Below the pieces are notes generated by a model. It was not told the DNA's origin. It worked only from the letters and a program-made list of their open reading frames with translations, and did not search any database. Shown here piece after piece: positions 3,115-53,250 of a stretch of 64,000 nucleotides of DNA. Positions within the stretch are counted from its first letter, which is position 1. Each line of letters begins with the position of its first letter. This stretch comes from Owenia fusiformis (lineage: Eukaryota > Annelida > Polychaeta > Sabellida > Oweniidae). Position numbers and translations under genes: made by a program. The stretch covers positions 3,780,001 through 3,844,000 of the forward strand of contig CAIIXF020000009.1 of assembly GCA_903813345.2 (NCBI GenBank), read 5' to 3'.

Positions 3115-5460
3115 CTAACTCAACCTACCCTTAAGAGAGGGGCAGGCATTTACACAGTGAGTGCCCTGGCCACATTTGAAGCATACTGTGGCACCAGGAA
3201 CTTTTGAGTTGGGATGTCTTTGGCTACAATCAAATACTGAATGACTTCCCGAGTCACATATTTTACAGTATTTTCTTTTCAGTTTGGAAACAGGTTTCTC
3301 CTCTGTAATAGTTTCAGTCAGATTTCTGGTTAAAGCCTTCATCTTTTGCTCAACTATTTCCATAATATCACTCTCAGAGAGAGATAATGAGGTAGATGAG
3401 TTAACCTGAACAGGAGTTGGAGTAGCACATAAAACAGGGTCTGGAAAACTTTCAAGTCTCTTCTTTCTTCCCTTGAAGAAAGCCTCATATTGCAAAGCCA
3501 TGGTAAGAGCTTCATTGAGACTTTTGGGGTTAGAAAAAGAAAGCTTGGATTCCAGTTCTTCATTATTCAAAGCATCAATGAAGGCCTGTTTAGCTAGGTC
3601 GTCAATTGTCTTCCTTGACATGCCTGACTTCCCAAAGGCTTGTCTTGACAATTTTCTGATATCATGAGCCAACTTTTCAAGAGTCTCATCATTGCCTCTG
3701 AACTTATGTTTAAGCTCGGCACGGGCATGGTTACTTTGTTCAGGAGGTTCATAGTTAATTTTCAGGACATTAATAATACTAGCCAAGGTTGGCAGGTCTT
3801 CATCATCCAAATCATCTAAAACATTGACAGCCTCTCCCTCAAGACTTCTCACCATATAGATGGCAGATTCCTCATCTGTCCAACCATTTATGTTAGAGAC
3901 AAGTCTAAATTGGATAAGAAAAGCCGAGAGACTACACTTTCCATTGAAAAGTGGTGCTTTCATTTCCCTTCTAGAAAACGAATTGCCTCTTCTTTGGTTT
4001 TCAACTCCAGTACAGGATTCCTGATCGGATGTATTAGGACTGGGTATAAAAAGATCATTGGGTTCATCAATCTGTCTGTAGAGACCAAAGGAACATGGAT
4101 TCACTTTTGATCTACTCATATCTCTAGATCTGAGGGGAGGAAAACAATTTTCCATAGCAGATTCATATTCATCAGAATTGTTCATGTAGTAAGCTGGTCT
4201 TTGTCTAGATTTTGCATAGTAAGATGGGCATTTCATACTATTTTCTACATAATCTGGGTCAGAAAAGTCAACAGTTGTTTCATATTCTGGAGAGGGAAAT
4301 AGTGATTCTGCTTGAGAGGATCGAGCATAATCTTCATTTACCCTCTGTTTGAAGGAGAATTGTTGACAAGGTATGTAACCATTACTTTCAATCTGGGCTG
4401 AAATATCATGGGAGGGCAAAGCACTTCTGTTATAGCCAGGTATTTGAGCATCAAGCCATGAAAGTGTCTCCAAATGTGAGTCATAGGTCTGATCCACACT
4501 TTTGGGTAGACAATATGGCTGTCTGCAATTGGCAGAAAACTCAGTGCTTTGAGATGATTTGTCTGATAAACTGAACATATCAGATTTATCAACAACTGGG
4601 ATTTTGCAAGGAGGGGATTCACTAGATTCACATAAGACTCTAGCATTAGGCCTCTTTAAAGCTTGTCTACAAAGACTACTTTCGAATTGGTGCATACATT
4701 CATAACTTTTAGACTTAATACCCGAGTTTGGAACAGTCTGGTCAGTTAGAAATTCAGCATGTTTCAACTTGTCAGGCTCACTTAATTGAGTAATCTCTTT
4801 TGCAACTAAAGGGGCATTTGAAGCCTGGAAAGCCATCTTAAGATCATATGACTGATCAGTTGATGGAGTCTCTTTAGGCAAACATTTCATGAAGTTAGGG
4901 TCATAATACATTGAGGGTGGTATTATATCAGATGGGATCAGTAAAGGGCTTTGCAAAGGCTGTACTGACAGTTCACCCCCATATGCTCCCTGAAGCATGT
5001 CACCTTCATGAGGTGTCAGTGGCATCGGAGCAAGGGGTGGAACCTGGTAGTTGACTTGCACATCCTTTACTACTCCCACTTTGCTAGAATCACCCAACAA
5101 ATCATAGTTTGGCTTTGTATAGTCATATTTTCTCTCTTGTTTGACATTTATTGGGGACTTCAGTGTCAAATTACGGGAATGAGAGAATTCTTGGGTCTTT
5201 GGTCTAAATCTGGGAATGTCAGTTATTTTAATTGGGGGGAGTAAGGGTCTAAATGGAGATTTTCTTTTTACCAGGATCTTGCTTGCTGCAGGAGATCCTA
5301 TTGGCAAAGTATCATCTTGTGCCAGTTTCAAATCTTTATTAAGATGTTGATGGCCCAAAACCACTTCTAAATCATCCAAATACCCTGGTGTTATAGACCC
5401 AAAAGCTCCTGATAGGGACTTTTGACATGGCAAAGCTTTCATTTTGGATTTTTCTGACAT
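3115..5460 (-). CDS. Gag-like protein with two CCHC zinc knuckles (781 aa)
   Basis: The product is probably the structural nucleocapsid/capsid protein of LTR element 1. Residues 1-500 or so are long, polar and Pro/Ser-rich, with no domain I recognise. Roughly residues 510-690 resemble a retrotransposon Gag capsid segment: an amphipathic helical stretch that starts near the motif APLFNGK and includes NVLDDLDDED and LAHDIRKLSRQAFG. The C-terminus has two CX2CX4HX4C zinc knuckles, at C732-C745 and C760-C773, which normally bind RNA. The ORF stops eight residues after the second knuckle, with no protease or RT in the same frame or shortly after. At 781 aa it is larger than most Ty3/Gypsy Gags, and the long N-terminal extension is unusual. 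The open frame and identical LTRs suggest it is functional or was until recently. Confidence 0.8.
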   Translation of the reverse strand: MSEKSKMKALPCQKSLSGAFGSITPGYLDDLEVVLGHQHLNKDLKLAQDDTLPIGSPAASKILVKRKSPFRPLLPPIKITDIPRFRPKTQEFSHSRNLTLKSPINVKQERKYDYTKPNYDLLGDSSKVGVVKDVQVNYQVPPLAPMPLTPHEGDMLQGAYGGELSVQPLQSPLLIPSDIIPPSMYYDPNFMKCLPKETPSTDQSYDLKMAFQASNAPLVAKEITQLSEPDKLKHAEFLTDQTVPNSGIKSKSYECMHQFESSLCRQALKRPNARVLCESSESPPCKIPVVDKSDMFSLSDKSSQSTEFSANCRQPYCLPKSVDQTYDSHLETLSWLDAQIPGYNRSALPSHDISAQIESNGYIPCQQFSFKQRVNEDYARSSQAESLFPSPEYETTVDFSDPDYVENSMKCPSYYAKSRQRPAYYMNNSDEYESAMENCFPPLRSRDMSRSKVNPCSFGLYRQIDEPNDLFIPSPNTSDQESCTGVENQRRGNSFSRREMKAPLFNGKCSLSAFLIQFRLVSNINGWTDEESAIYMVRSLEGEAVNVLDDLDDEDLPTLASIINVLKINYEPPEQSNHARAELKHKFRGNDETLEKLAHDIRKLSRQAFGKSGMSRKTIDDLAKQAFIDALNNEELESKLSFSNPKSLNEALTMALQYEAFFKGRKKRLESFPDPVLCATPTPVQVNSSTSLSLSESDIMEIVEQKMKALTRNLTETITEEKPVSKLKRKYCKICDSGSHSVFDCSQRHPNSKVPGATVCFKCGQGTHCVNACPSLKGRLS

Positions 5461-35300: not shown

Positions 35301-38300
35301 TATGACATCAGTTTGACTGAATTTTGAATTTTTGATGACGTAAATCAAGATTATTTCTACTCGCATCTAGTCTATTGCCATCATCTAGCCCTTAGTGTGA
35401 ATTGAATAGCACTTAATGTGAATGGTTTTCATTTTAAACCTGTTTCACTTATAAATAGTCATTGTGTAATTTGTGTAATGTGAAGGGGTCTTGGTATAAT
35501 CCATATAAACTAATATGTTGTGTCAAGGGGTCTTAATGATAATCCATACTCCTTATCTTGGGCCTAATATGCAAACATTGATTGCAATTATCTGTTATCA
35601 CTCATTGCATCCCACTTTATCAAATTGATTCAGAAATTGGTGTTTTGTACCCTTTCGAAAGAGTTTGATTTTGTATCTCTTAAGAAAATGTTCATCTCCA
35701 CCTTTTGATTCTTTCATTAAGAAATGATCCTTTGACGTAGCATTAAAAAATCTAATTTGATGGTTTACCAACAATACACTGTTATCTACTCATTTAAAGC
35801 TAACATCGTCATCCATTTACACATCCTTTTCAGAGGCTAGGATTTTACTGCTGGTCTGGGATTCAGGGTATAGTTAGGCATACTGGTACTTATTAGGTTG
35901 AAATCACATTAAACTTACTTAAGGCTAATTGCATTCAGAACTGGGTACTTCTAAACATACATCACTTTCATATTCGTGTCAGAGATTTTTTTCCAATTGA
36001 CGTTTGGAATAGAGGGATTATACCAAACGTTGAAAATCATTCTTTGAAAATTATTTTTATCTCAGGATTCCAGAATGATGTCATCATTGATATATGAATG
36101 TATTTGATCATCACCTGATTTTGTTCAAGCTTTATTGGGTAGATTCCGATCATCAGTGAACATTTCATAAAAGTCTTGTATCAGGCCTCTAGACCTCCCC
36201 CATCCCGACCTAATGTTTGGAGTTACAAGGGCTCAGTGCAAGACTATCATTCTTATAGTTGTATGCAGTTAGAATAATCAAATCGGTCACTTGTATCATT
36301 CATGGTCTTGATTTTTTTGCGTTATCAATAATTTTTTTTGCTTCAATAATATTCATCTGAACAAACATGAACACATTATTCATTCAAATTCATTGTTTTG
36401 GTAAACAATGGTTTAATGTCAAAGCCGCCTTTTATTTTATAAATTGGCCATAAGGGAGTGATTTGCTAGGTCATGGTGACATATCACACATTTTTTATTG
36501 CAACTTCCTAATGAAACAGTGGTATCAATGCACATTGTGTGTTTCATTCAAAATTCACTAATGTCTTTATTCTTGAGATATCACTAGTAATATAAAAAGT
36601 AAGTCCTCTGTTTTCCTCTTTCTTTCTCATAATATTAATCAGAAGTATCCTATTCTGTTTCCAAACTTTAACCATGGTTTCAGTTCATACGCCTCAATGT
36701 CATTGTGCTAATATATTGTCAACTATGCATTACAATATTCTGCTCAATAATGTACCGAAAATCAATAATCTACTTTTCTATTTAAGAACCAAATTCATGC
36801 ATGTTTTCAATGCTGGGCAGAAGAGGAGACAAAATCCCAGAGCTTAGAGATGACTCATCTTGTTTATCAACTTCATTTGTCTAAATTTCCACCATATAGT
36901 TTCTAAATGCCTTGATGTGATGGTTTGAAAATTTGTTGATGTCACTCCTTGTCAAATGACCAATCAGCAATGAGATTGAAAATATGAGTCTTCTCAGAAC
37001 CCTCTGGTATCCCATTTCTGCTGGGCAGTGTTCCTAGCATTGGAGCATACGGGTCTTCTCTGAACCATGGGGTATCCCCCTTGTGCTGGGCAGTGTTCCT
37101 AGCATTGGAGCATACAGGTCTTCTATGAACCATGGGTTATCCCCTTGTGCCGAGCAGTGTTCCTAGCATTGGAGCATACGGGTCTTCTCTGAACCATGGG
37201 GTATCCCCTTGTGCTGGGTAGTGTTCCTAGCATAGGAGCATATGGGTAGGGTGTTCCAGAATATGGCTTTTTCATGCTAGCAAGATGCAGTTCAGACCAG
37301 ATGCGCTCTTGATAGTAAAGTTTAAGCTGAAAAAATTTCGGTTCCTAAAATCGACGTTTGACCCCCCCCCCCCCCCCCCCCTACCGACATTTTTGCGAAA
37401 ACTGGTAAAAAACGGCAAAAAACGTCATTTTCTAGCCTTACAAGGTAAACTATGAAGGATGGATGTCAGAAACCTTGTCAAAATCATTAGGTTATGGTCA
37501 TTATGTATTATCATACAGTTGAAAACATAGTATACCTTGTTCATTAATTATTTAACCCTTTTCCTACTAATATTTGAGCGAAAATCGCAAATATATCACA
37601 TTTTGAAACAAACTATTTGCTCTTTTACTGTTATTCATATGGTAGCTTATCTCTAACTACTAAACACCATCAAACTGGTAATACTGATGGTAATAACAAT
37701 TAGATAAATGGTACTGCAAGGGTTAAGCACTGTAAACCATATTTTAGAGTCCTGGTTATAAGGTGATCATGCATTCATTTAGATAATGGTTTACACTGAA
37801 TTAGTTCCACCCATGTACTCATAAATGATCTAACATGTTATAATAACAATGTCTAATGTCTACAGATTATTCTGCATTTCATTTTTTAGGAATGCAGGGA
37901 TCTTGGCCCTATGAGAGGAGGAAACCAGAATCATTCTAGCCCTCACAGTGCCATCACGGGCAGCATTGGCGTAGTCTTGTATGTCTTTTACGCTCCTCTC
38001 TGCAGCGTCATTAACCACATACAGATTATGCACAATAGCTGCTAATTTAATATATCCTTGATGTGTAGCCCACTGGTTGATTGGTAGATGGAGCCAAGTT
38101 GTATCCCCATTTGTAAGATCAAATAACAACCAAGATCTTGGCCCTAAAAAGTCAATAAGTTCTTGGTTGGGCTGAATGAGTATAATCAGTGTGGAAATCT
38201 GGCTTCCCAGGGTTGAAGACAATTGGTCTTTGGATTCCCAATAGATGTCTTGCCATACTTTCCCGTGTGATGTCATCCAGGCCATCATCAAACAGGGCAA

Positions 38301-41300
38301 AGACTACCAGGGATTCAGTGAGGTACCATTGGTGTCTGAGTATGGAGGATTTCACTTCCTGGGCTATCTCATTATCTACATCCTAGAATATATTAGAAGT
38401 TTTTTACTTATTGACCTGCATGTTATGAACACTCCAATATTTTTTACTTATTACAACTGTACATTTTGAATGCCTGGCATATGGATTTACCTCAAAGATA
38501 CACATGTGTTTCCAGAGCTGTAGGTCAAGGCGTGGTGATGGTGCAGAGACACAGGCTTGAAGAAACCATGGGCCGTAAAACAAAGATATGAATAGAGCCA
38601 TCCTATCGATAGATCATCATTGCTGGTGTCACAAGACCTTGGGGCAGTCTATCACCGAGGAGGGACAACTTCAAAAGGTAGATGCCAACAGCAAGGAACC
38701 GTGCGTGATGAAATGCCCCCGGAGCACGCATGATCCAAATCCATCTATTCATATCTTTGTTTTACGGCCCATGGTTTCTTCAAGCCCGTGTCTCTGCACC
38801 ATCACCACGCCTTGACCTACAGCTCTGGAAACACATGTGTATCTTTGAGGTAAATCCATATGCCAGGCATTCAAAATGTACAGTTGTAATAAGTAAAAAA
38901 TATTGGAGCGTTCATAACATGGAGGTCAATAAGTAAAAAACTTCTAATATATTCTAGGATGTAGATAATGAGATAGCCCAGTAAGTGAAATCCTCCATAC
39001 TTAGACACCAATGGTACCTCACTGAATCCCTGGTAGTCTTTGCCCTGTTTGATGATGGCCTGGATGACATCACACGGGAAAGTATGGCAAGACATCTATT
39101 GGGAATCCAAAGACCAAATGTCTTCAACCCTGGGAAGCCAGATTTCCACACTGATATACTCATTCAGCCCAACCAAGAACTTATTGACTTTTTAGGGCCA
39201 AGATCTTGGTTGCTATTTGATCTTACAAATGGGGATACAACTTGGCTCAATCTACCCATCAACCAGTGGGCTACACATCAAGGATATATTACATTAGCAG
39301 CTATTGTGCATAATCTGTATGTGGTTAATGACGCTGCAGAGAGGAGTTTAAAGACATACAAGACTACGCCAATGCTGCCCGTGATGGCACTGTGAGGGCT
39401 AGAATGATTCTGGTTTCCTCCTCTCATAGGGCCAAGATCCCTGCATTCCTAAAAAATGAAATGCAGAATAATCTGTAGACATTAGACATTGTTATTATAA
39501 CATGTTAGATCATTTATGAGTATATGGGTGGAACTAATTCAGTGTAAACCATTATCTAAATGAATGCATGATCACCTTATAACCAGGACTCTAAAATATG
39601 GTTTACAGTGCTTAACCCCTGCAGTACCATTTATCTAATTGTTATTACCATCAGTATTACCAGTTTGATGGTGTTTAGTAGTTAGAGATAAGCTACCATA
39701 TGAATAACAGTAAAAGAGCAAATAGTTTGTTTCAAAATGTGATATATTTGCGATTTTCGCTCAAATATTAGTAGGAAAAGGGTTAAATAATTAATGAACA
39801 AGGTATACTATTAGGCCAAGCAAATGGGCTCATAAAAGGCCCAAACATCCCAAAAATTGCAACAGTTTTTAAATTAGTCTTATATTATGTATTAATATCA
39901 GTTGAAAAACATATCAAAAATATAGAAAAATGTATGCAGTGGACAAATATGAAATTTCACTTCCTAGGTACCCCCTACAACCCTACCCCAAAATTGAGTA
40001 TTGGTAGGAAACAATTTTTTCTTCCCAAATGGAATACTTTAGTCAAGTATTCAAGCTTTATTATGATAGATCACATATTCACAAATAATTAAAATATTAT
40101 TTTAATCAATTTTGAGACCAGTTATTGGTCATTTGACCCCAAAGTATAACAAAATAGGCCACAAAACAGGCATGTTATCACATATCTATTTAGATATTTT
40201 AGGATCAGTTTGTCAGAAAAGCATGAAAAAAATCATGGTGTTACATATTCATATGAACTTCATATTTGGTGAGTGTCAGAATTCTAAGGTGTATACTGAG
40301 GAAGAAAAAAATTATTTCATTTTCATAGTTTTGCCCCGCCCACTATAGGGGAGATTATAGTTTTGATGATTAACTCCCACAATGCATCACATTTGTATTA
40401 GAGTTGATATCTAAATCATGTATATAGGCTTGTCATCATCTAAAATACAAGTTTTGTGAAGGTTTATACCTTATTAGTATGAAAAATAGGAATTATTAGT
40501 TGCACCAGGTGAAATGTTAAGGTGACCTCACTTTTATTTGATGAATAATTACATATCACCACTCTGATATTAGGGTATTTGATAACTGCTCTATACTAGG
40601 CTTATCTAAATAATGTAAGTTGTAGTTTTTGTGGAATTTAATATTGTTTAAATTATTAATTACAATCCGCAATTACAAAATTTGCATATATTTAAATTCA
40701 TCAGATAAATAAATCATTACATAAGAGTACATTACTATGGAACTGGATGTATAATGCTGTAGAAACGAATTCATGGTTATTAAACGGAATTTAAACTGAC
40801 AGAGAACATTAAAATCTCAGATATCTGGGGAGTCTTTCATTAATATAATTTCAGTGCATAGGAATGATGGTAATTCTGTCTGTCAGGTTGGAAAACATTG
40901 AGTGTTCATGTGCTGCATTCAGAATCGGATGCAGATATTGTGATTGTGAAAACTGCAATCCAAAGTGTCCAAACCTCAAATACAGTACTCAAACAGATCT
41001 CCTTGTGCTTCTCATTTATCATGCACAAAACACAAACTTCAACATTTTCTTCAAACCTGAACCAAAAGCAGCAACCCAAGAAACAAAATGTTGGAATATA
41101 AATGAAATAAGATTGTCTTTGGGAAAAGTGGTATTTGACAATATTTTGTTTCTTTTCTGGGGTGTGACATCGCATTCAGGTTATATATGGCATAGACAAG
41201 AGGCTATCATTGAAGCAGATAGAAAACAGTGAGTTCTTGAGAAAACAAGCGGTTGTTTTTAAATTACCAAATGCAGTCTGGTGATCCGCTCGATTACGCT

Positions 41301-51547: not shown

Positions 51548-52007
51548 ATGTAGGTTAGGGTGGCTCAAAATAATTTTTTTTTGGAAATGTTATGCTCCCT
51601 ACATGAATCGAGTTGCATTTTGGGGTTAATATCACCTGTGATTTTTTTCAAATTTTTTAGTCAACTTTTAGGGGTCCCCCACAGCCTTTGAAGTTTGCCC
51701 ATAGGCTTAACATTAGTGGGCGTCGCCTAAAATTGTACTTTGTAGAAGTTTTCTTCTAGAGTGATTTATATATGTTGTTGAAGAAAAACAACATTGTATA
51801 TGATATGATTAGATGTTTAAATCATCATATTACTCTGTTTCATCATGTGAACTTATAAAAAAGGTTATACTTACAATATCCTACTAACAAAATATTAGGT
51901 ACATTCGACCAGTATAATTATTTGAACAAGTACAGTTTTAGGGAATCATGTCTCATATATGATTTGGTAAACTGTAAAAGATATATTCATTCTTGACATT
52001 TGATGTT

Positions 52008-52430
52008 TTAAACATGGTTCAGATCAGCTTTTCTTATATGTGACACTCTTCCTTTAAGATCTGAGAGTACAACACATACATTGTCACGATGCGCCGCGTC
52101 ACAGGTCATTTGAAATATTCCTGCAGATGATACCAGAACTTGAGACTGTGAAGAGGTGCTGTGGTTGTCAAGGGGGCACTTAGAAAATACCATCCATAGA
52201 GACAGACCACAAATCCCACAAGTTGTGTTATCCTCTGCAGTTGCTGTGGAGTAAGTTGGACAAATAAGTGGCTGAGCATGAATATCTTCAAGAGGTAGAG
52301 ACTCTTCCCCATGAACTTGGCATAGTGGTAGGCTCCAGGTTGGTCGCAGGTCTTCGCAGTGTAAGACAGAGCAAGAGAGGAGAAGCAGGAGCTTGCTACA
52401 GCACTGCTCAACATCCCACAGCCTGTACAA
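52008..52430 (-). pseudogene. VNDxAER-family related fragment, minus strand
   Basis: Read on the minus strand, one frame shows FVVCLYGWYFLSAPLTTTAP and HSLKFWYHLQEYF, similar in layout to LFYGPWFLQ ... [11 protein letters not shown] of the 37530-39808 element. Another frame ends AHRDNVCVVLSDLKGRVSHI and RKADLNHV. Frames are broken between the two parts. Confidence 0.5.
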
Positions 52431-52599
52431 TTTGCAACTGCAAACCGGGACAGCCTGAATTCAACTCAGTTGCTGCTCACTTAGGCAATGTTAAACCATC
52501 ACTAGCAATGTTTGTTATTGAGATCGAGATCTTGGCTCTTATTGTGACAATGTATGTGTTGTACGCTCATAGCAACTTATGTTCAAACCCAGAATTTCT

Positions 52600-52769
52600 G
52601 TCAAGACCTGCATTCTGTTAATGATCCAGCTGAACGAGCAGTGAAGCTGGTACAGGAATGCTCTCAAATGACCCGTGACGTGGCGCATCGTGACAATGTA
52701 TGTGTTGTATGCTCAGATCATAGAGGAAGAGTGTCACATATAAGAAAATCTGATCTGAACCATGTTTAA
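52600..52769 (+). pseudogene. VNDxAER-family C-terminal fragment, plus strand
   Basis: The frame reads DLHSVNDPAERAVKLVQECS, then AHRDNVCVVCSDHRGRVSHI and RKSDLNHV before the stop at 52767-52769. It corresponds to [15 protein letters not shown] and the end of the 37530-39808 element's protein. The last 30 or so residues are mirrored by the minus-strand copy that ends at 52008. Confidence 0.55.
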
Positions 52770-53250
52770 AACATTAAATGTCAAGAATGAATATACCTTT
52801 TACAGTTTAAACCATTATAATGACAATACCAAATCATATATGAGACATGATTCTCTAAAACCGTACTTGTTCAAATAATTATACTGGTCGAATGTACCTG
52901 ATATTTTGTAAATAGGATATTGTAAGTATAACCTTTTATATTTAGTTCACATGATGAAACAGAGTAATATGATGATTTAAACATCTAATCATATCATATA
53001 TAATGTTGTTTTTCTTCAAACAACATAAATAAATCACTCTAGAAGAAAACTTCTACAAAGTACGATTTTGGGCGACGCCCACTAATGTTAAGCCTATGGG
53101 CTAACTTCAAAGGCTGTGGGGGACCCCTAAAAGTTGACTAAAAAATTTGAAAAAAATCACAGGTGATATTTACCCCAAAATGCAACTCGATTCATGTAGG
53201 GAGCATAACATTTCCAAAAAAAAATTATTTTGAGCCACCCTAATGTAGGT

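Follow-up and report, generated by a model that had tools for sequence, protein, structure and literature searches.

The window analysed here, a stretch of 64,000 nucleotides from the annelid Owenia fusiformis, contains a palindromic element of 1,687 bp at positions 51556..53242 (element B, the window member of family B). It opens with TAGGGTGGCTC from 51556 and runs up to GAGCCACCCTA at 53242. These exact ends are flanked by an 8-bp target site duplication, ATGTAGGT, at 51548..51555 on the left and 53243..53250 on the right. The host site is a tandem repeat with a 22-bp unit, whose phase is restored when the flanks are joined through a single copy of the duplication. Since the flanks rejoin into a continuous 22-bp repeat, the element must have been inserted here.

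Self-alignment yields long inverted-repeat arms that make up most of the element, a structural trait of Foldback transposons: positions 1-568 match positions 1098-1687 with 92.2% identity. The left arm (51556..52123, minus strand) is an inverted 3' end, comprising the terminal repeat, the 3' untranslated part and the last codons of a transposase-like gene, while the right arm (52653..53242, plus strand) presents the 3' end in sense orientation. Reading frames place a copy of the C-terminal tail (AHRDNVCVV...GRVSHIRKADLNHV) in the left arm at 52008..52115 on the minus strand. Joined to this arm, as seen by translation and exon alignment, is a minus-strand frame at 52106..52465 that contains the penultimate exon (PGAYHYAKF...YGWYFLSAPLTTTAPLHSLKFW). 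This strand lacks most of the last exon, and its penultimate exon runs straight into the last codons. On the plus strand, reading frames and protein alignment locate the end of the C-terminal exon with VNDPAERAVKLVQ at 52617..52769; the Glu of AER in this stretch is a candidate catalytic residue. An extra internal piece of the C-terminal tail lies at 52541..52574 (plus strand) as one copy of direct repeat D4, the second being at 52687-52720.

A previous, sequence-only reading of the window held that both arms end in AHRDNVCVV...GRVSHIRKxDLNHV, preceded by VNDPAERAVKLVQ. The ending is indeed found in both arms, but VNDPAERAVKLVQ precedes it in the right arm only; on the left strand it is the penultimate exon that precedes the tail.

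Family B as a mobile palindrome

A search of the 498-Mb genome with the left half of element B as DNA query gave 83 alignments, and 31 places, including the window, were examined. Both ends are present in 30 of these, and 28 of the 30 two-ended copies have identical 8-bp flanks. The palindrome with an 8-bp duplication that had been proposed at 51556-53242 is thereby confirmed, with ends, coordinates and duplications exact. The exceptions are L014 and L029, which lack identical 8-bp flanks, and L030, which lacks the ends. L018 and L019, which lie on different contigs with different flanks and duplications, share 1,678 bp without a single difference, and L007 and L008 show 1 difference in 1,688 positions. 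Given these near-identical copies and fresh duplications, family B is mobile and has moved recently: the palindrome has spread as one unit and acquired new 8-bp duplications. A tree of B arms might give this spread mild support. It covers 25 of the 31 copies (omitting L001, L012, L014, L022, L029 and L030), has good support on just 14 of 43 inner branches, and mixes the labels left and right because copies were kept in mixed orientation.

Two subtypes can be recognised. Subtype 1 (the window copy and L002-L016) has left arms that mostly measure 570-590 bp, compared with mostly 630-660 bp for the arms of subtype 2 (L017-L029). Copies L012 and L022 are interrupted. The whole last exon is open on the plus strand of L026 (183 codons), and the right parts of L026 and L020 are approximately 90% identical to that of the window copy. 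An open frame contains the motif VNDxAER in 11 of 29 B copies, a count requiring the exact letters, so that a miss does not amount to a broken frame. Some other copies contain stops inside the matched protein stretch.

A genome search with the D1-D2 region of L034, the full-length element of family D, found no full-length parent of B. We therefore infer the origin of B from families A and C. The 5.5-kb copy L001 (5,497 bp) was considered as an autonomous parent and rejected, as its frames are those of a B palindrome plus an apparent inserted LINE. Its long minus-strand frames (G000:C1:3120880-3126620) read as an endonuclease and a reverse transcriptase.

Full-length relatives and superfamily

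The window contains another palindrome, of family A, at 37247..39811. Its C-terminus and that of element B are identical at 19 of 60 positions (E 1e-11 in a single comparison), and B copy L026 matches the full-length A element L033 at 58 of 175 aligned positions (33%, E 2e-28). Upstream, the blocks YGWYFL... and YGPWFL... align as one and the same penultimate exon. The sequence-only reading was thus right to see one protein family and a comparable upstream block in both window palindromes, and the shared motif survives proper alignment. It had also taken their termini to be unrelated, and this part has to be given up: families A, B, C and D all begin with TAGGGTG and have a T-run around positions 19-28. 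The two window elements belong to sister families that share their tips.

Relatives were found across the genome with the last exon of family A as the query, and their surroundings were extracted. One complete copy was detected for each of three families: L033 (family A; 4,415 bp, terminal repeats of 487/491 bp), L035 (family C; 3,794 bp, repeats of 170 bp) and L034 (family D; 3,912 bp, repeats of 322 bp). All three have perfect 8-bp duplications and transposase-like genes inside, so the full-length homologues do lie between TAGGGTG terminal repeats, as had been suggested. A host gene was rejected for all three on account of these repeats and duplications. The gene can be followed through the pieces HWDGK, FDTTxSNTG...ACRHH (WDTT in A), PGAxxHARFxxxxIYxxK, FLQA...PRxDLxxW and VNDxAE, and to judge from the reading frames it is apparently split by introns. 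A DDE nuclease fold of the predicted protein is weakly supported.

The genome search with the D1-D2 region of L034 returned the three full-length elements and two weak matches (E 0.45 and 0.63), which may be read as hAT transposons. L038 and L039 were tried as distant parents and rejected, being read as ordinary hAT elements. Pfam gave nothing above cut-off for the transposase-like exons, and sequence searches of the PDB, single and by profile, gave nothing meaningful for these proteins. No relative was confirmed with the N-terminal profile in viral and bacterial contig collections, nor with the C-terminal profile in viral contigs.

The published group most similar to these elements is hATm, described in the available text of PMC6004678 with TAGGGTG/CACCCTA termini and duplications of 8 or 9 bp; two examples given there have terminal repeats 417 and 575 bp long. 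Likewise, families A, B, C and D have TAGGGTG and CACCCTA termini, and perfect 8-bp duplications flank 5 of 7 two-ended C derivatives and 5 of 5 two-ended A derivatives tested, besides the full-length and B copies given above. The full-length elements also share with hATm a single transposase-like gene and terminal repeats of hundreds of bp. The latter trait was judged from the full-length copies of A, C and D; the repeats of C are shorter than the published examples, and the trait is perhaps not defining for hATm.

One difference concerns the hAT dimerisation domain PF05699, which is reported for hATm-6 (PMC6004678). None of the four C-terminal exons matches it at E<=10, under HMMER filters that discard most weak matches. 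However, L039, which reads as a hAT element, also stays below the curated cut-off (17.4 against 21.4 bits), so that the missing domain is weak evidence. When the D1-D2 profile is aligned to L039 in global mode, HWDGK, FDTTxSNTG and ACRHH fall in register with the positions of D1, D2 and C(x)2H in an RNase H-like core, at a probability of 4.4%. In local mode the score is 33.5 (35%), compared to a maximum of 24.8 among shuffles (0 of 150 as high) and to 13.4 and 14.2 for two unrelated proteins. The last-exon profile gives no signal against L039, with 20 of 150 shuffles equally high. Because L039 was picked as the best weak hit, the D1-D2 alignment counts as support rather than proof.

Transposases of the P type are marked by a THAP domain. 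No such domain is among the Pfam hits of seven exons at E<=1, and the duplications are 8 bp rather than the 7 bp of Galileo, a member of the P superfamily. On these sequence features, element B is very probably a palindromic non-autonomous hATm-like DNA transposon. The part of PMC6004678 that covers autonomous copies and MITEs mentions no 3'-3' palindromes, and among the matches listed in the openly licensed literature we found no paper on palindromic hATm derivatives.

Palindromes of families A and C and their origin

Mapped on the full-length elements, the palindromes of A and C consist of the 3' end inverted, followed by the 3' end again. All seven two-ended derivatives found for family C are of this 3'-3' type, and they have seven different sets of breakpoints. 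In parent positions, L040 reads 3794>2760, 2544>2387 and 2512>3794; L041 reads 3791>2371 and 2671>3794; L042 reads 3794>2349 and 2728>3794; and L043 reads 3794>2209 and 2844>3794. More complex are L044 (3794>2626, 2007>2720, 2893>3794), L045 (3794>2562, a terminal-repeat piece, 2094>2579, 3035>3794) and L054 (3794>3308, about 1.2 kb unmatched to the parent with its own inverted repeat, 3042>3794). The two copies lacking a clean duplication are L041 and L044. The count leaves out the one-armed L053 and the diverged relatives L056 and L057 (73-83%). Main arms are 97-99.7% identical to the parent, and main arm pairs inside a single copy are 97.6-100% identical, one pair in L054 being identical over 487 bp.

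In family A the arms extend beyond the terminal repeat in the window copy, L047, L048, L049 and L050. The window palindrome corresponds to parent positions 4415>2931 and then 3071>4139; it has one detectable tip, the last 276 bp of the right arm being lost, and L047 too has a single tip. L048 shares its seam with L049 and L050 with L032, and L051 starts where L050 and L032 do, so that family A has at least four seams. Not counted as separate palindromes are the one-sided L032 and also L031 and L051, whose left arm is terminal repeat only and which alone are indistinguishable from ordinary deletions. At the seven seams examined, either 0-7 bp are shared or 5-9 bp of filler intervene, as in end joining.

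The inverted duplication of the 3' end is thus directly visible in families A and C, where the 3' end of a surviving parent gave rise to separate palindromes that differ in their breakpoints. An assembly or long-read artefact is a very improbable source of these structures. Long-read data can contain false inverted reads, but the palindromes stop at the element tips, most two-ended copies have 8-bp duplications, the arms of most copies differ, and spacers or fillers are present.

Some minor observations concern the same loci. The last-exon frames of the window A palindrome are broken in both arms. L056 (G000:C3:5398300-5404500) and L057 (G000:C3:27998700-28001700), with 73-83% identity to C over their better pieces, are probably further families. 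Tandem repeats run through long reading frames in the flanks of L031 and L032; L031 adjoins a GPCR-looking frame and L032 lies beside a long array.

The products are one-sided as well. The genome contains one occurrence of the C 5' part (parent positions 171-1407), compared with nine of the C 3' end at 97% identity or more (the parent, the seven palindromes and L053). The 5' part of A (490-1726) occurs twice, in searches blind to A derivatives that have the terminal repeat alone on the 5' side. The second occurrence lies in L055 (G000:C6:21121300-21125300), a one-ended 5' fragment (parent positions 1039>1) and the only derivative found with unique 5' sequence of A. Against 11 separate 3'-3' seams in A and C there is no 5'-5' palindrome, for which the probability would be 2 x 0.5^11, or about 0.001, if both kinds were equally likely and independent.

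A possible footprint of the origin is preserved in L040. The 5' and 3' terminal repeats of the C parent L035 differ at 17 of 170 positions, the first 45 bp being identical. At the first five of these sites (46-95) the left repeat of L040 agrees with the 5' type, and at the remaining twelve (100-165) with the 3' type, without any further difference in 170 bp, which puts the switch between positions 95 and 100. Such a chimeric repeat would be left by a strand whose synthesis began in the 5' repeat and then switched to the 3' one.

We favour, with a probability of about 0.7, an explanation in which element B is a hATm-like non-autonomous palindrome that was formed by template switching during repair and moved in trans. 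The parent would have been excised or broken, after which repair synthesis would enter from the 5' flank and copy part of the 5' terminal repeat. The strand might then jump to the near-identical inverted 3' terminal repeat and enter the 3' gene end the wrong way round. There it would meet the normal strand coming from the 3' flank, and end joining could seal both, leaving unequal arms and seams where 0-7 bp are shared or a short filler is present. For the product, which has two 3' ends, mobilisation in trans may finally come from a hATm-like transposase able to recognise the TAGGGTG tip. The repair switch as such, with or without excision, is likely.

Excision may not even be needed: a break in the 5' terminal repeat might be mended from the 3' repeat of the same or another copy by non-allelic recombination. 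This course fits L040, and the accessible part of PMC3573991 proposes it for Galileo copies with recombinant repeats. Here its outcome is indistinguishable from excision-gap repair and it leaves the one-sidedness unexplained, so we regard it as a possible but not the preferred route. Gap repair alone has the same difficulty, as it predicts 5'-5' palindromes equally often and none is seen.

The other C palindromes are less informative about a switch. L042-L045 carry 3'-type repeats at both ends, and the two sides of L054 likewise agree with the 3' end; in L041 each arm shows the 5' letter at site 46, with the 3' type setting in by site 66 at the latest. Consequently, a jump in these six would lie in the outermost 45-65 bp, of which the first 45 are the same in both parental repeats and would hide it, or be erased. 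They are fitted equally well by a fold-back, in which the 5' half is lost and the exposed strand snaps back and copies itself to the 3' end, or in which a replication fork turns back on itself; the resulting palindrome would then insert elsewhere. Such a process would also produce unequal arms, a single-copy spacer and seams with little shared sequence. It suits C palindromes that each have their own breakpoints and, in five of seven, their own perfect duplication, and loss of the 5' end would account for the absent 5'-5' forms. Nonetheless, the L040 repeat with its change from 5' to 3' type is left unexplained, and we consider both fold-back variants together rather doubtful. That the chimeric repeat occurs in L040 alone speaks against the repair switch, and with the footprint in one palindrome only our confidence in the full explanation is slightly reduced. 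The repeats of family A share, in all copies, a pattern mixing the 5' and 3' types; the compared parent is therefore not the exact source of the A copies.

Precedents, possible effects and family D

The proposed process has relatives among known transposons, and the closest precedents are Galileo copies with recombinant repeats and maize Mu killer. According to the available text, 38 of 170 Galileo copies in D. mojavensis have two recombinant terminal repeats, for which a similar repair process is proposed (PMC3573991), and in D. willistoni both repeats have taken up the end of the transposase ORF, with 69 bp of it in one copy and >500 bp in a second (PMC4168063). As in the present families, internal sequence is recruited inverted into both terminal repeats. 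Galileo differs by its P-type transposase, its 7-bp duplications and the other structural types that are common in it, whereas the arms described here reach approximately 1.1 kb and include the last exon. For Pack-TIRs, template switching in gap filling has also been proposed, as far as PMC8277862 is available. Four things appear to be new: the lineage itself, the finding that all two-ended C derivatives detected are 3'-3', how many separate seams can be compared with a parent that is still available, and the switch point preserved in L040. The origins of foldback transposons are mostly deduced from the finished products. In the present genome a parent can be compared with its offspring, the seams differ and one switch point is kept, so that foldback origin and 3' preference become directly testable. 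The many mirror-image offspring in this genome, several of them formed independently, illustrate a way in which faulty DNA repair may give rise to parasites of parasites.

A possible reason for the spread of 3'-3' forms is offered by mariner elements, which in the accessible part of PMC4505599 transpose best in vitro with two copies of the preferred end, although these are laboratory constructs of another superfamily. A second parallel is Mu killer, a maize MuDR derivative in which a partial inverted duplication of the transposase gene is combined with two copies of one terminal repeat (PMC3440606, available text). Both features recur in the present palindromes. Mu killer belongs to the Mutator lineage and is reported to silence MuDR, while here the formation is recurrent, in an animal genome, and family B is mobile.

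By analogy, the palindromes might act as natural silencers, with read-through RNA forming a hairpin of the transposase end that feeds small-RNA silencing. This would concern their effect rather than their origin and is compatible with the other explanations. The architecture equals that of Mu killer and one full-length copy was detected per family; yet the spread can be explained without silencing and B moved recently, which makes silencing improbable. Going further, nearly all offspring of some hATm-like families could be 3'-3' palindromes made by terminal-repeat template switching, serving as super-parasites and Mu-killer-like repressors until one parent is left. We consider this broader proposal unlikely. 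If true, two preferred ends would make a better substrate than the parent and the encoded hairpin of the transposase end a potential silencer.

Family D behaves differently. Four copies have the 5' and 3' parts in ordinary order by their search coordinates (L036, C7:30416303-30418541, C6:39561258-39563394 and C2:6920678-6926134; middle mapped in L036 alone) and are of the deletion type. In addition, the family includes L037, a partial inverted copy that lacks a second tip, and several one-ended pieces. As family D consists mainly of ordinary deletions, the palindrome rule is not general. The proposal that non-autonomous members form by inverted duplication of the 3' end hence applies to A (at least four seams) and C (seven breakpoint sets), but not as a general rule. 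Stretches of approximately 150-200 bp, 80-88% similar to the outer D terminal repeat, are scattered over the small contigs C13, C100, C104, C406, C415, C482, C511 and C515, with more such stretches on C2, C8 and C11; these are perhaps a MITE group.
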